Source of the DNA: Candidatus Manganitrophus noduliformans
Lineage (GTDB): Bacteria > Nitrospirota > Nitrospiria > SBBL01 > Manganitrophaceae
DNA length: 64,000 nucleotides
Reading direction: 5' to 3'
Assembly: GCF_012184425.1 (NCBI RefSeq)
Contig: NZ_VTOW01000007.1
Location: 1 to 64,000 of the forward strand
The translations under genes and the position numbers were made by a program. Under the pieces are notes generated by a model, which saw nothing but the letters and a program-made list of their open reading frames with translations, was not told where the DNA came from and searched no databases. Position 1 is the first letter of the stretch; every line of letters begins with the position of its first letter. This document shows positions 10,420-18,843 of this stretch, piece after piece.

Positions 10420-13194
<2,775 letters not shown>

Positions 13195-13206: not shown

Positions 13207-15606
13207 TCAAGCCTCCAGCGCGGTATATCCGGCGTCATCGAGCGCGTTCTTGAGCTGCGGTTCTTTCACTTTTGCCGGCTCATACCGGACGACCAGATGC
13301 TTTTGCGCGACCTTCGGCTTGACTTCGCGTACACCGGAGATCGGCCTCAATCTTTCGCGGATCGTCTGAGCGCACCCTTCACAGACCATCTTCGGAATCA
13401 AAAACTCCACTTCGGCAAGTTGAACGTTTTCTTCCGCCTCGGCTTCATGCTCGAGCGGAATTCGGCGGATCCGAAGGGTGTTGAGGAGAATGGCGAAGAT
13501 GCTCAGGATCATGAAGCCGATCGCATAAAGCGGGGTAATGAGGCCGAGGGCGGCCAAGAGCATTCCGATGATATTGAAAAGCACCGCCACGACGACATTT
13601 CCGGTCATCGTGCGATAGGCCGCGCTGCCCAACGTCAGCGCATTCGCCACCTCTTCGAGCCGGTCGCTCACGAGGATCACCCCCGCCGATTCAATCGCCA
13701 CATCGGTTCCGGCGGCAATGGCGATTCCGACATCGGCCTGCGCCAGCGCCGGGGCGTCATTGATCCCATCCCCGACCATGGCGACTTTACGACCCTCTTT
13801 TTGGATCGATTCGATCGCAAAGACTTTTTCAGGAGGAAGGAGTTCCGCTCGGACCTCATCGATGCCAAGCTGTCCCGCGATTGCTTCTGCCACCGGCTTC
13901 GCGTCGCCGGTGAGCATGACCGTCCGGATGCCCTGTTCCTTTAACCGCTCGATCGCCCGCGTCGCCCCCCTTCTCGGCGTGTCTTGAAGCGCAATCATCC
14001 CGGCAAGATCCCTATCGCGGGCAAAGAGGACCACCGTCTTTCCCTGAGCGGAGAGCTGTCTTAACCGAAGATGGCCCCCCTCCAGAAGCGCGACCCCTCG
14101 TTCTTCCAGGAAAGAGGGCTTCCCTGCGAGAATCTCAACCCCCTCCACTTTTGCTGAAACCCCCTTCCCGGGAAAGGCCCGGAAGTCTTTCACTGCGACC
14201 GGCTTCGCCCCCTCTTTCTCGGCATAAAAGTGAATCGCCTGCCCGATCGGATGTTCGGAGGGGCCTTCGACAGCTGAAGCAAGGGCCAGAAGATCGGCTT
14301 CGTCCACGCCCAGAGGAACCACATCGGTGACCGTCGGGCGTCCGTAGGTTAAGGTGCCTGTCTTATCGAAGAGCACCGTGTCGGTGATCGAGAGCTCATG
14401 AAAGACTTCGCTGGCTTTCACGAGAAGTCCGATGGAGATCCCCTTGCCGCCGGCGATGGCGGCGAGCATCGGGGTGGTAATCCCCAAGGCACAGGGATAG
14501 CCCATGATCACCGTCGTCAGGAGAACGAGGACGGAAGCGACCCCGTTTCCGGTGGCAAGCAACCATCCAGCAAAGGCCACTCCCGCAACGATGAATACGA
14601 CCGGCCCATAATAGTTCATCAGGCGATCCGCCAGAAGCTCCAGGGGTGGCTTTCGGTCGGCGATCTGCGTCATCAGTCTAACGATCTGGTTCAAGAAGCT
14701 CTCTTCGCCGACTTTCGTGACGCGGATTTTGAGCTCGCCGTCGAGGTTGAGCGTTCCACCGATGACGTCGCTCCCCGCAGACTTGGCAGAAGGGACCGAC
14801 TCCCCGGTGAAGCTCGATTCATCGACGCTGGCGCCGCCTTCAATCACTTTTCCATCGAGCGGAATCCGCTCGCCCGGCCGGACGATCGTCACCTCTCCGG
14901 CTTCCACCTCACTGGTCAGCACTTCGACAGGGTGCTCCCCGCGCAACACCCGCGCTCTTGCCGGTTGAAGCGAGAGGAGTTTTCGAACCGCTTCGGCCGC
15001 TTTTCGCCGGGTGTCGAGTTTAAAGTAGCCGAAGAAGAGATGGAGCGCCATCAACCACGATGCCACAGGGAGGAAGTTCGGCCAACGGGGGTCGAAGAGG
15101 GAGAGAACCCCCACAATGAAAGAGCCCCAGGCGCCGGCGGAAAGGAGGACGTTGGCGTTGATGACCCGCTGACGAACCGCCAAGAGGGTTTTTCTCAGAA
15201 TCGGCTGACCGACCCAGAAAAGGATAAAGGCGGCCACCGCTAAGCTAAAATAAGCCCTCCACTGCTGAGGCAGCCCAAAGAGATTTAGAGGATCAATGAT
15301 CACATCGATCACGGCGAGGATCATTCCGAGCGTGCTTCTCCCTTTAATCAACTTGAAGAGGGCTTGATCAGTGGCGTATTGTTGCGTCTCCGTGGAGGAA
15401 ACGCTGTATCCCAGCTTTTCGACGGCCGCCGCGAGATCCGCTTTGCTGATTTGAGAAGTGTCGGCCTCCACGAGAACAATCCCATGAACAAGATTGACCA
15501 TCACTTTCTTTACGCCTGGATGGCGCTTCAGCGCTTTCTCCACGCTCATGGTGCAAAAGGAGCACATGAGCCCTGATACCTTCAGTTGTACCGTTTCTGT
15601 TGCCAT
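13207..15606 (-). CDS. Heavy-metal P-type ATPase with YPC motif and two HMA domains
   Basis: Inner-membrane P-type ATPase of 799 residues. It has an N-terminal HMA domain (C15-S-F-C18), transmembrane helices, the motif Y370-P-C372-ALG in place of CPC, then DKTGTLT, MLTGDAK and GDGINDAP, and a second HMA domain at the C-terminus (C742-E-G-C745). The last helices read FN and FMILSI rather than the YN and MxxSS of copper pumps. The metal is therefore uncertain. AGGAGG before the ATG at 15606 sets the start. It lies 82 bp downstream of merR on the same strand and is convergent with copA, 12 bp apart. Context suggests Hg(II), Pb or Cd transport. Confidence 0.88.
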   Translation of the reverse strand: MATETVQLKVSGLMCSFCTMSVEKALKRHPGVKKVMVNLVHGIVLVEADTSQISKADLAAAVEKLGYSVSSTETQQYATDQALFKLIKGRSTLGMILAVIDVIIDPLNLFGLPQQWRAYFSLAVAAFILFWVGQPILRKTLLAVRQRVINANVLLSAGAWGSFIVGVLSLFDPRWPNFLPVASWLMALHLFFGYFKLDTRRKAAEAVRKLLSLQPARARVLRGEHPVEVLTSEVEAGEVTIVRPGERIPLDGKVIEGGASVDESSFTGESVPSAKSAGSDVIGGTLNLDGELKIRVTKVGEESFLNQIVRLMTQIADRKPPLELLADRLMNYYGPVVFIVAGVAFAGWLLATGNGVASVLVLLTTVIMGYPCALGITTPMLAAIAGGKGISIGLLVKASEVFHELSITDTVLFDKTGTLTYGRPTVTDVVPLGVDEADLLALASAVEGPSEHPIGQAIHFYAEKEGAKPVAVKDFRAFPGKGVSAKVEGVEILAGKPSFLEERGVALLEGGHLRLRQLSAQGKTVVLFARDRDLAGMIALQDTPRRGATRAIERLKEQGIRTVMLTGDAKPVAEAIAGQLGIDEVRAELLPPEKVFAIESIQKEGRKVAMVGDGINDAPALAQADVGIAIAAGTDVAIESAGVILVSDRLEEVANALTLGSAAYRTMTGNVVVAVLFNIIGMLLAALGLITPLYAIGFMILSIFAILLNTLRIRRIPLEHEAEAEENVQLAEVEFLIPKMVCEGCAQTIRERLRPISGVREVKPKVAQKHLVVRYEPAKVKEPQLKNALDDAGYTALEA

Positions 15607-15688
15607 GCCAAAGTCCTCCTCGTCAGAAAAGCGACGAAATCGGCTCCGAGGGACGTGGCGATCTTCGGTAGCCGACTCTTGAATAAGA

Positions 15689-16090
15689 TCAATCTTCGTT
15701 CTTTGCTTCCAAGATGGGGCATTCGCTGGTGGGCCCACGCCCGCTGCAGGCGTTTGTCACCTTGACCAGGGCCTGTTTCATTCTTTTCAGGTCCGCTATT
15801 TTTACCTCGATGTCGGAAATTTTGGCTTCGGCCCGTTGTTTGACATCACTGCAGGTCGTATGCCGATCGACTCGCAAAGAGAGAAGCTCCAAGATCTCCT
15901 TGAGAGAGAACCCAAGTTCCTGGGCGCGCTTGATAAACTGAATGCGCGCCACGGCGTCTTCAGCGTACTGCCGGTAGCCCGACTCCCGTCGGGGGGGCTC
16001 CAGGATCAGCCCGCGCCTTTCATAATAACGGACCGTTTCAACCTTGACCCCTGCTCTTTTGGCCAACTGGCCGATGGTCAGACTCTTCAT
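15689..16090 (-). CDS. merR: MerR-family metal-responsive regulator
   Basis: This 133-residue protein has an N-terminal MerR winged helix (LTIGQLAKRAGVKVETVRYYERRGL), a dimerisation helix, and cysteines C80, C115 and C124. The spacing C-x34-C-x8-C is that of the Hg(II) site of classic MerR, and the CPIL ending fits too. Pb and Cd regulators of the same family can have similar spacing. It is divergent from merA and is the first gene of an operon with the YPC ATPase. Its own promoter has the 19-bp spacer and central dyad typical of MerR targets, so it probably activates its own operon when metal binds. Confidence 0.9.
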   Translation of the reverse strand: MKSLTIGQLAKRAGVKVETVRYYERRGLILEPPRRESGYRQYAEDAVARIQFIKRAQELGFSLKEILELLSLRVDRHTTCSDVKQRAEAKISDIEVKIADLKRMKQALVKVTNACSGRGPTSECPILEAKNED

Positions 16091-16108
16091 CTCTCAACTC
16101 CATTGCTA

Positions 16109-16139
16109 CTATAAACCCTGCACCTAGGTGTAGAGTCAA
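16109..16139 (-). promoter_or_regulatory. MerR-type promoter with 19-bp spacer and operator dyad
   Basis: On the minus strand, TTGACT (16134-16139) and TTATAG (16109-16114) are 19 bp apart. The spacer holds a near-perfect dyad at 16118-16133 with core CACCTAGGTG and one mismatch. A 19-bp spacer with a central dyad is the hallmark of promoters twisted open by MerR regulators. It faces merR and the YPC ATPase gene. Confidence 0.88.
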
Positions 16140-16184
16140 GTCCTTTATTTCTCCATTCACATCAGGATTCATTTTAACTTTTAG

Positions 16185-16212
16185 TTGTAAAATCAACTCA
16201 TATTGATATATT
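16185..16212 (+). promoter_or_regulatory. merA promoter with operator in the spacer
   Basis: TTGTAA (16185-16190), a 16-bp spacer and TATATT (16207-16212). The inverted repeat ATCAA-ctcata-TTGAT (16192-16207) fills the space between -35 and -10, the position expected for a repressor site. The ArsR-type protein encoded two genes downstream is the likely ligand. The 12-mer TCAACTCATATT within it recurs before the tolC-cusBA operon. Confidence 0.6.
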
Positions 16213-16249
16213 AAAAATAAGCGGCTCTATATGACAAAGGGAGGAAGAG

Positions 16250-17647
16250 ATGCGGCAGTTTGATCTGGTTATCTTAGGAGGAGGCTCCGGGGCCTTTGCC
16301 GCGGCAATCAAGGCGCGGGAGCTCAATCAGTCGGTGGCCCTCATCGAACGCGACCGATTGGGCGGCACCTGCGTTAACCGCGGCTGTGTTCCCTCAAAAA
16401 ATCTTCTGAAAGCGGGTGAGGATTTCTACTACCACCGCCGTTCTCATTTCCCGGGCATTCATCATGGAGAGGGCAGATTCTACTTTGAAGAGGTGATGGC
16501 GCAGAAGCGCCAGGTCGTCCAGAAAGAACAGAAGGGCAAGTATGCCGATGTGATCTCCCATCTCGGCATCACTTCCATTCCTGGAATGGGACGATTTGTT
16601 TCAGATCGAGAAATAGGGGTCAACGGCGAGCGGGTCGCCGGCGAGAAATTTATTGTTGCCACCGGGGCCAAGCCTGCGATTCCGCCGATTCCGGGGATCG
16701 AAGCGGTCGATGTCTTGACGAGCACGACGGCACTCGAACTCGAATCGCCTCCCGAATCGATGATCATTTTGGGGGGCGGCTTTGTCGGACTGGAGTTTGC
16801 CCAGATGTATCACCGATTCGGCTCGCGTGTCATTCTTCTGGAGATGAAGCCCCGCATCCTGGCGGAGCAAGAGGAATCGATTTCCGAACGGCTCACCCCG
16901 TACCTGAAAGAAGAGGGGATCGACATCGTCACCGGAGCAAAAGCGACCCGGGTGCAAGGCCGTGGCAGGATGAAGATCATCACCGCGGAGATCGATGGGA
17001 AAGAGAGAACCTTCGAAGGGGAAGCGCTGCTGGTCGGCGTCGGCATCACCCCCAATAGCAGAGAGCTTGGATTGGACAAAGCCGGCGTTGAGGTCACCCA
17101 AAAGGGATATATCCAGGTCGATGACGAGATGCGGACCACGAATGAGAACATCTATGCGGTCGGGGATGTGGCCTCAAAAATCGCATTGGAAACGGTGGCG
17201 GCCGCGCAAGGAAGCATTGCTGCGGAGAATGCCCTCACCGGAAGTCACCACACATTTGATTATCTCTCTGTCCCGAGCGCCGTCTTTACTCATCCGGAGG
17301 TCGCCTCGGTCGGCCTCACAGAGAGGAAAGCGGAAGAGATCGGGATCGCGTGCTCCTGCCGGAGCCTGGAGTTTAAGGTCGTCCCCAAGGCCGATCTGAT
17401 CCATGAAACGAAAGGCTACATCAAAATGGTCATTGAGGCGAAGACCGAGCGGGTGATCGGCGTGCACATTCTGGCTTCCGGGGCGGCCGATTTAATTCAT
17501 GCCGCGGTCATGGCGGTAAAGTTCAAGCATACGATCAGGGAGATTCGCTCCACCCTTTTCGTCTTTCCGACCCTGTCGGAGTCGATCAAGTTGGTGGCTC
17601 AATCGTTCACAAAAGATGTGGCCAATCTCTCTTGCTGCATTGAATAG
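16250..17647 (+). CDS. merA: Mercuric reductase, without N-terminal HMA domain
   Basis: Cytoplasmic flavin disulfide reductase of 465 residues that reduces Hg(II) to Hg(0) with NADPH. It has the FAD motif LGGGSGAFAA, the redox pair in GGTC41VNRGC46VPSKN, the second dinucleotide motif ILGGGFVGLEFA, and the FAD motif YAVGDV. The C-terminal vicinal pair C462-C463 (SCCIE) distinguishes MerA from lipoamide dehydrogenase. No NmerA (HMA) domain is present. GGGAGGAAG lies before the ATG. It is followed 15 bp later by an ArsR gene. No merT or merP is seen in the window. Confidence 0.94.
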   Translation: MRQFDLVILGGGSGAFAAAIKARELNQSVALIERDRLGGTCVNRGCVPSKNLLKAGEDFYYHRRSHFPGIHHGEGRFYFEEVMAQKRQVVQKEQKGKYADVISHLGITSIPGMGRFVSDREIGVNGERVAGEKFIVATGAKPAIPPIPGIEAVDVLTSTTALELESPPESMIILGGGFVGLEFAQMYHRFGSRVILLEMKPRILAEQEESISERLTPYLKEEGIDIVTGAKATRVQGRGRMKIITAEIDGKERTFEGEALLVGVGITPNSRELGLDKAGVEVTQKGYIQVDDEMRTTNENIYAVGDVASKIALETVAAAQGSIAAENALTGSHHTFDYLSVPSAVFTHPEVASVGLTERKAEEIGIACSCRSLEFKVVPKADLIHETKGYIKMVIEAKTERVIGVHILASGAADLIHAAVMAVKFKHTIREIRSTLFVFPTLSESIKLVAQSFTKDVANLSCCIE

Positions 17648-17662
17648 GATAGAGGAGGATTC

Positions 17663-18070
17663 ATGATCCAGGATGAACTGCTTTCTGCCCAGGTCGGCCT
17701 CTTCTCGGCGCTGGCCGATCCGACGCGGCTTCAGATCTTAGAGTTGCTTCACCAGAAAGGGCCGATGCACGTGACGAAAATCTACGAGGCGCTCGGCAAA
17801 CCGCAGAATCTCGTCTCCCACCATCTCAATTGTTTGAGAACCTGTGGATTGGCCGAAATGGAGAAACAGGGCCGGATGGCGATCTACCGGGTGGCAAATC
17901 CTGAGATCGATCGAATCCTCGATTGGGCGCATAAGCAGGTCATCGTGCAGGCGGAGCGATCTTATCTTGCAGCTTGGTGGGGAAGAAAGGACACACTGGA
18001 AAACGATCCGGGAAAAAATATGGCAAAAAGTGAAGTTTTTCTCAAGTTGTATTCCCTACGAAGAATTTAA
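17663..18070 (+). CDS. ArsR/SmtB-family repressor with CmtR-like Cys pair
   Basis: This 135-residue winged-helix repressor reads ADPTRLQILELLHQKGPMHV, then a recognition helix (QNLVSHHLNCLRTCGL). C57-L-R-T-C61 has the same spacing and numbering as the Cys57/Cys61 sensor pair of the Cd/Pb regulator CmtR. The third CmtR ligand near residue 102 is not a Cys here. AGAGGAGG lies before the ATG. It is co-transcribed with merA and likely represses the merA promoter until thiophilic metal binds. The last bases overlap the convergent gene at 18067. Confidence 0.88.
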   Translation: MIQDELLSAQVGLFSALADPTRLQILELLHQKGPMHVTKIYEALGKPQNLVSHHLNCLRTCGLAEMEKQGRMAIYRVANPEIDRILDWAHKQVIVQAERSYLAAWWGRKDTLENDPGKNMAKSEVFLKLYSLRRI

Positions 18071-18843
18071 AATCGGTCTTTCTCTTTGTTCTGGCTCTTT
18101 TCCCCTTTCTCATCAAAAAAGGAGAGGTCAGGTTTCCCTTGCGGCGTTAAAGCCAGCTCGGCGCGGCGCGCGCCGCTTTTGTCATAGAGCTTGAGGCCAG
18201 GGCTCCCATCCGGCTGTAGACCGAGCCCTGCGCGCAATTTGCCATTCCGGTCGGAGAGGATCATCGCCGAGCCGCCGTCTCCGCCGACTCCAAGCCCAAT
18301 ACGCACTTTATCCTTCGGATCGAAAAGACCCAAGCTTGGACTTCCATCGAGCAGAATCAGACTCATGCGCCGATCACTCTTCTGATCATAAAAGTATAGG
18401 CCCGGGTTTCCTTTGTGATTCAAGCCGAGACCAGCCCGCAATTTACCATTTTGATCATGGAATGCCAAACCGGGACTGCCGTCTTCCATCAGGCTCAAGC
18501 CGGCGCGGGGCCTGCCATTCTGATCTGCAAGATTAAGGACAGGGCTTCCATCTGCGAGCAGACCGACCGCAAGGCGGGGTCTTCCTTCTTGATCGATAAG
18601 GTGCAACCCCATGCTCCCATCTGGCTGGATTGCTAAGGACGCACGGACTTTGCGATCCTTATCTACGAGGGAGATCTCCTCCGCCGCAATCATTCTGGCG
18701 GGATGGGATTCTGTTTGATCAACGTCCGGGATCTTCTGGGCCGATGCGAGATTATCAAGAAGAAGCCAGGCCAAAAGACCACTGGCCAGGCCTGAGACCA
18801 TCGCTAAGCCGAGCATCACTGCATATTGGTTTCTGTTCATCAT
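18067..18843 (-). CDS. Repeat protein with eight 22-23-residue units, single membrane anchor
   Basis: This 258-residue protein has an N-terminal membrane segment (VMLGLAMVSGLASGLLAWLLL) and then eight tandem units, roughly DGSPGLxLxDQNGKxRAGLGL, from about residue 65 to 248. Each unit alternates hydrophobic residues and ends in a DxxG turn, which suggests a beta-solenoid facing the periplasm. The tail is highly charged. I know no function. It lies between the mercury genes and the cus efflux operon and is convergent with the arsR gene (4-bp overlap). AAGAGGA lies before the two ATGs at 18843 and 18840. Confidence 0.75.
   Translation of the reverse strand: MMNRNQYAVMLGLAMVSGLASGLLAWLLLDNLASAQKIPDVDQTESHPARMIAAEEISLVDKDRKVRASLAIQPDGSMGLHLIDQEGRPRLAVGLLADGSPVLNLADQNGRPRAGLSLMEDGSPGLAFHDQNGKLRAGLGLNHKGNPGLYFYDQKSDRRMSLILLDGSPSLGLFDPKDKVRIGLGVGGDGGSAMILSDRNGKLRAGLGLQPDGSPGLKLYDKSGARRAELALTPQGKPDLSFFDEKGEKSQNKEKDRF

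Follow-up and report, generated by a model that had tools for sequence, protein, structure and literature searches.

We analysed positions 1 to 64,000 of contig NZ_VTOW01000007.1 from the manganese-oxidising bacterium Candidatus Manganitrophus noduliformans (assembly GCF_012184425.1; this whole 64-kb stretch is hereafter called the window), which encodes a P1B-type metal-transporting ATPase with a Tyr-Pro-Cys (YPC) motif next to genes for mercury resistance (mer). In gene content and gene neighbourhoods, pumps of the YPC lineage go together with mercury genes in both bacteria and halophilic archaea, a stronger finding than could be known from the first reading of the sequence. Our preferred interpretation, in which we place modest confidence, is that the pump, induced by Hg(II), exports soft metal ions (probably Hg(II)) and works beside the mercuric reductase MerA in a two-unit mercury-resistance cassette. 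YPC pumps as a whole probably constitute a P1B subtype whose link with mercury genes spans two domains of life, and this lineage has apparently not been described so far. We put forward more tentatively the broader proposal that this lineage is a new P1B functional subtype dedicated to mercury (Hg(II) or one-ligand adducts). It would act as a mercury exporter within the mer systems of both Bacteria and Archaea, and its specificity switch would be the Cys-to-Tyr change in transmembrane helix 6 (TM6) together with the Tyr-to-Phe change in TM7.

In textbook mercury resistance, Hg(II) is imported by MerT/MerP and then reduced, and an ATP-driven pump devoted to mercury is not, to our knowledge, recognised as a component of mer systems. 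The YPC lineage, which predicts the presence of MerA, occurs in two domains and has concerted changes at its copper site, offers a direct way to test how a P1B pump selects its metal. It would also provide an extra marker for mercury resistance and biosensing.

The YPC signature and its phylogeny

The ATPase contains only five cysteines: two in a CSFC motif (residues 15-18), two in a CEGC motif (residues 742-745) and C372, within Y370-P371-C372. The other metal-site motifs are F677-N678 in place of YN and M699-x2-S702 (MILSI in place of MxxSS). The P-type catalytic motifs are invariant and the protein matches the P1B profile well above its cut-off (Table 1). An AlphaFold model with a predicted local distance difference test (pLDDT) score of 80.6 has the P1B fold and shows a break in the TM6 helix at Y370-P371; the top-ranking Foldseek matches to this model are CopA and ATP7B structures.

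All nine YPC relatives recovered by similarity search have MGYPCA or LGYPCA at this position. A joint signature of three motifs is present in 45 of 45 YPC proteins, namely [ML]GYPCA, N(x)6FN in place of YN, and MxxS in which I, V or L takes the place of the second serine; N678, M699 and S702 are invariant. H41 (in the first HMA domain), A159, H189, F304, P320 and F402 are also diagnostic, each being present in at least 95% of the 45 YPC proteins and at most 10% of 84 others. The Cu(I) site of AfCopA is formed by C380, C382, Y682, N683, M711, S714 and S715, and mutating its CPC cysteines impairs copper binding (PMC9433437). The changes in TM6, TM7 and TM8 of the YPC lineage fall on residues matching these CopA ligands, as though the tyrosine had, so to speak, "moved" from TM7 to TM6.

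A DNA pattern for the [ML]GYPCA-type motif was run over more than 1000 genomes; being exact, it misses variant codons or residues. Matching genomes made up 12 of the 350 from one proteobacterial class, 5 of the 240 from a second (one by chance), 2 of the 197 archaeal ones and 5 of the 296 from the phylum of the window genome, which is itself counted. A reversed control pattern gave one match in total. Except for one chance match (G534/L110), which was dropped as no YPC protein is encoded there, all matches read GYPCA in frame in a P-type ATPase context.

FastTree placed the YPC proteins on one side of a branch with a support of 98, and a quick maximum-likelihood tree built without the motif columns did the same with a support of 91. 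In these trees the YPC proteins are separate from copper (CPC), CPH and ZntA-type pumps. The best tree gives all YPC proteins one origin, which is likely but not proven, because the approximately unbiased test rejects neither two YPC origins (p = 0.29-0.30) nor a placement of the long-stemmed subclade of the window protein with CPC pumps (p = 0.29). In the literature searched, which did not extend to a 2014 survey of P1B subtypes in JBIC where the lineage may have been named earlier, we found neither a description of the YPC lineage nor the string YPCALG, and the sole functional mention of a YPC P1B protein was CopAL6 (PMC11082258). Databases label the YPC genes only as "heavy metal" or "cation-translocating P-type ATPase".

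Association of YPC pumps with mercury genes

We compared 29 genomes that have a YPC gene with 40 that do not, drawn from mixed groups and sizes. MerA, called at its curated cut-off, was found in 21 of the 29 YPC genomes and in 3 of the 40 YPC-free genomes (Fisher p = 2e-8), with the caution that the YPC-free genomes were hand-picked (by size among other things) rather than random, that several genomes are incomplete, and that the gene families are phylogenetically correlated. Two control genes were not enriched: the copper oxidase CopA (11/29 versus 14/40) and the arsenite pump Acr3 (16/29 versus 16/40). General metal richness is therefore not the explanation of the link with MerA.

The association is also physical. 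In 12 of the 29 YPC genomes the pump gene has merA within 18 kb, where about 1% would be expected by chance. MerR genes neighbour 32 of 48 YPC genes and only 3 of 75 other P1B genes, and a gene for MerA, MerT or MerB is present within 6 kb of 15/48 versus 1/75. CcdA-like neighbours are similarly common (29/48 versus 2/75), whereas CsoR is rarer beside YPC genes (4/48 versus 32/75). A neighbour query named TrxHMA was disregarded, as it matches any HMA domain.

In haloarchaea, four of the five plasmid loci examined have the order merA, helix-turn-helix gene, YPC pump, HMA gene, with no merT nearby. This block is kept on megaplasmids of several haloarchaeal genera (L105, L158, L159 and L163). In Bacteroidota, Proteobacteria and Bacillus the pump occurs in modules with CcdA and small HMA proteins, often together with merT, merTP or an entire mer operon. 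CcdA-like, thioredoxin, small HMA and MFS genes often flank YPC pumps (L106, L108, L149-L157 and L160).

A preliminary description of the locus had picked out the YPC motif and the proximity to merA as unusual. Both points have held up on wider sampling: on the evidence of the trees and motifs, YPC is not a trivial variant within the Cu or Zn/Cd/Pb group, and the link with merA recurs widely in other genomes, for example on haloarchaeal plasmids.

The locus in the window and a second mer operon

The window locus consists of two divergent units separated by a gap of 159 bp between merR and merA (Table 1). On the minus strand, merR lies 82 bp upstream of the co-directional ATPase gene; on the plus strand, merA and arsR are 15 bp apart. 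The ATPase starts at an ATG (15606) preceded by the ribosome site GAGGAGG, and an alternative, longer GTG open reading frame (to 15738) runs into merR.

Table 1. Features of the YPC ATPase and mer locus, in window positions
Feature	Positions	Strand	Basis
YPC-type P1B ATPase, 799 aa, HMA domain at each end	13207..15606	(-)	TIGR01525, 530 bits (cut-off 346)
merR, MerR-type metalloregulator	15689..16090	(-)	TIGR02051, 151.9 bits (cut-off 150.85); Cys80, Cys115, Cys124
MerR-type promoter of merR-ATPase: TTGACT, 20-bp spacer, TATAGT	16108..16139	(-)	Both hexamers kept in three Manganitrophus genomes
9-4-9 palindrome ACCCTGCAC-CTAG-GTGTAGAGT, likely MerR operator	16115..16136	none	Likeness to firmicute MerR(Hg) signal
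Candidate merA promoter: TTGTAA, 16 nt, TATATT	16185..16212	(+)	Weak; consensus scan only
merA, mercuric reductase without N-terminal HMA domain	16250..17647	(+)	TIGR02053, 528 bits (cut-off 454.45)
arsR, ArsR/SmtB repressor, CLRTC motif	17663..18070	(+)	NF033788, 86.8 bits (cut-off 55)

This layout and its coordinates agree with the preliminary description, as do the YPC motif, the CxxC domain at both ends of the pump and the altered last-helix motifs (FN for YN and MILSI for MxxSS). The statement that no merT, merP or merC is visible is correct for the locus, where none of the three was found, and for the window, which has no MerT, MerP or MerB homologues apart from the HMA domains of the ATPase itself, but it does not extend to the genome, where a second mer operon includes merT. 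Likewise, the pump stands in place of merT/merP at this locus but not in the genome as a whole, and many YPC loci carry merT/merP as well. Dual control by MerR and ArsR, also suggested at the outset, is supported by the anatomy of the locus and by the presence of the same two regulator families in the second operon.

The same cassette is present in at least two further Manganitrophus genomes, there without merT or merB, and the closest named relatives of the ATPase are on Manganitrophus plasmids (94% identity). On the Manganitrophus GAC4 plasmid CP114563.1 (L104, 9961-11354), merA is annotated as three overlapping pieces and merR reads in two frames, reflecting either sequencing errors or decay of merA/merR.

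The second operon, on contig 1 of the same assembly (L168:5806-10917), has the classical mer content, in the order arsR, merF, merT, merB, merP-like, a small open reading frame, merA (with an HMA domain), merR and a thioredoxin-like gene. It too pairs an ArsR-type with a MerR-type regulator. A decayed copy of a second YPC ATPase is found 2.3 kb past its last recognised gene (L168:13198-13690), as a frameshifted remnant of the last two helices and the C-terminal HMA domain. This remnant is closest to a Deinococcus YPC protein (78% over 54 aa), compared with 48% for the best other P1B protein.

The window MerR has C80, C115 and C124 at the positions equivalent to C79, C114 and C123 of Hg(II)-responsive MerR, with the spacing C115-x8-C124. 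These three cysteines occur in Cd/Pb sensors too. The palindrome upstream of merR sits within the spacer between the two promoter hexamers, and among the three Manganitrophus genomes its arms, like the hexamers, are kept, with variation confined to the central 4 bp. The MerR(Hg) signal of firmicutes is a 9-4-9 palindrome (ACCGTGTAC-4-GTACAGGGT) in a 20-bp spacer, and the spacer of CueR and proteobacterial MerR promoters is 19 bp (PMC1526738). The window site agrees in form and spacing with the firmicute signal.

ArsR belongs to its family by the winged-helix profile and is not a CmtR-type Cd/Pb regulator (53.2 bits to NF047906, cut-off 150). Over 111 aa it shares 77% identity with the ArsR encoded at the head of the second mer operon (L168:5806-6177), which makes a mer role for this ArsR subtype likely. 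An inverted repeat upstream of merA (AGTTG-N6-CAACT) was weighed as a possible ArsR operator and dismissed, since a sister genome has it in broken form. In MerA, C41 and C46 form the redox pair, Y98 is present and C462-C463 stand at the C-terminus; the position of Y605 is occupied by F439, a Phe as in haloarchaeal MerA. A survey of mer genes includes the MerA (and apparently also the MerB) of the Mn-oxidising Nitrospiraceae strain Mn-1, and does not mention ATPases (PMC8261052).

Two further genes flank the locus. A CPC-type CopA-like ATPase gene (10420-13194, plus strand), with a Pfam cupredoxin domain fused ahead of its HMA domain, converges on the YPC gene at a distance of 12 bp. Between arsR and a CzcA-type efflux gene, a 258-aa repeat protein (DQNGKLRAGLGL...) is encoded on the minus strand (18067-18843) and has no Pfam or NCBIfam match.

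Proposed function and comparison with known systems

MerT and MerP import Hg(II), whereas well-studied P1B pumps export their metals, which suggests that the YPC ATPase exports too and would more likely complement MerT/P as an efflux route than replace them as an importer. Its substrate would be Hg(II), alone or along with a few other soft divalent ions. In the scheme that we propose, MerR would sense Hg(II) and turn on its own merR-ATPase operon, while the mer-type ArsR would govern its own operon and, on release, free merA-arsR. Cytosolic MerA would reduce Hg(II) to volatile Hg(0). The ATPase would pick up Hg(II) through its HMA domains or take it from thiols, and ATP hydrolysis would expel it past C372/M699, the membrane site being formed by one cysteine (C372), N678, M699 and S702 in place of the two-cysteine Cu(I) site.

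In favour of this interpretation are the enrichment of MerA beside flat copper and arsenite controls, the neighbour counts, the haloarchaeal loci, the three-cysteine MerR with its 9-4-9 palindrome, the kinship of ArsR with that of the second mer operon, the YPC remnant near that operon, the changes at the residues of the CopA copper site and the lowered copper resistance seen with CopAL6. Several points weigh against it. The window MerR exceeds the MerR equivalog cut-off by only about 1 bit. More than half of the YPC loci are without a mer gene within 8 kb, and the MerR relatives beside proteobacterial YPC pumps fall below every metal-specific cut-off, some being nearest to ZntR; for these reasons the wider YPC family may serve other metals. 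An exporter operating beside merT-driven import would be partly futile, and two-coordinate Hg(II) would be poorly served by a single cysteine without a further ligand. Finally, CopAL6, a metagenomic CopA-like protein, raised copper accumulation in E. coli (PMC11082258). Some YPC proteins may therefore at least bind copper, although the accumulation could also be sequestration.

Among the alternatives, the best placed, though we consider it doubtful, is a Zn/Cd/Pb-type exporter under a ZntR/CadR-like MerR that co-travels with mer genes on mobile multi-metal islands. P1B-2 ATPases (ZntA, CadA) resemble the window system in being often MerR-regulated and in effluxing divalent metals, the regulators beside proteobacterial YPC pumps score nearest to ZntR or just under MerR, and YPC genes frequently lie on plasmids close to ars, cop and czc genes. 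However, MerA co-occurs with YPC genes beyond background where the copper oxidase and Acr3 do not (Zn/Cd markers were not among these controls). In alignment with E. coli ZntA, the window ATPase also lacks the CPC motif, the TM7 Lys and the TM8 Asp of P1B-2 pumps, and ZntA and its relatives are on another branch.

It is unlikely that the pump is a P1B-1 descendant that has drifted yet still exports Cu(I)/Ag(I), moving the monovalent metal via one cysteine. CopA and ATP7B are its closest relatives in fold and sequence; it shares with P1B-1 pumps the catalytic motifs, the N-terminal HMA domain and the conserved Asn, Met and first Ser of the copper site (N678, M699 and S702), and its convergent neighbour is a CPC-type CopA gene. 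Unlike P1B-1 pumps, it has YPC for CPC, FN for YN and MxxS-I/V for MxxSS, and these sites are altered throughout its lineage. It also has an extra C-terminal HMA domain, appears to belong to a separate lineage, and is accompanied by MerR and mer genes instead of CsoR, which is rarer beside YPC genes than beside CPC pumps. CopAL6 has YPC and HMA domains at both ends and is probably a member of the YPC lineage. Characterised for copper only, it did not rescue an E. coli copA mutant, whose copper resistance it lowered rather than raised (PMC11082258). The altered site, the lack of a copper linkage and the lowered resistance all disfavour Cu(I).

We think it improbable that the pump handles mercury held by one ligand only (methylmercury or a glutathione-mercury adduct, for example), where one cysteine in the site would be enough. 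C372 is the sole membrane cysteine, and merB occurs in the same genome and beside a YPC gene in Paraburkholderia, but most of the YPC loci seen are without merB. An importer or metal sink that feeds MerA and does the work of MerT/MerP is very unlikely, in spite of the merA linkage without merT at the window locus and the copper accumulation seen with CopAL6, as the well-studied P1B pumps all export, many YPC loci have merT as well, and metal-binding domains overexpressed by themselves can increase cell metal.

Taken as a Hg(II)-inducible exporter beside MerA, the pump would belong to a system that departs from the classical mer operon (merRTPCA, or the firmicute type with merR first) in two respects: a P-type ATPase occupies the locus instead of the linked merT or merP, which are absent from the window and present elsewhere in the genome, and merA forms a separate divergent unit with ArsR. 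What the two systems share is MerA, MerR and a palindrome within a long promoter spacer.

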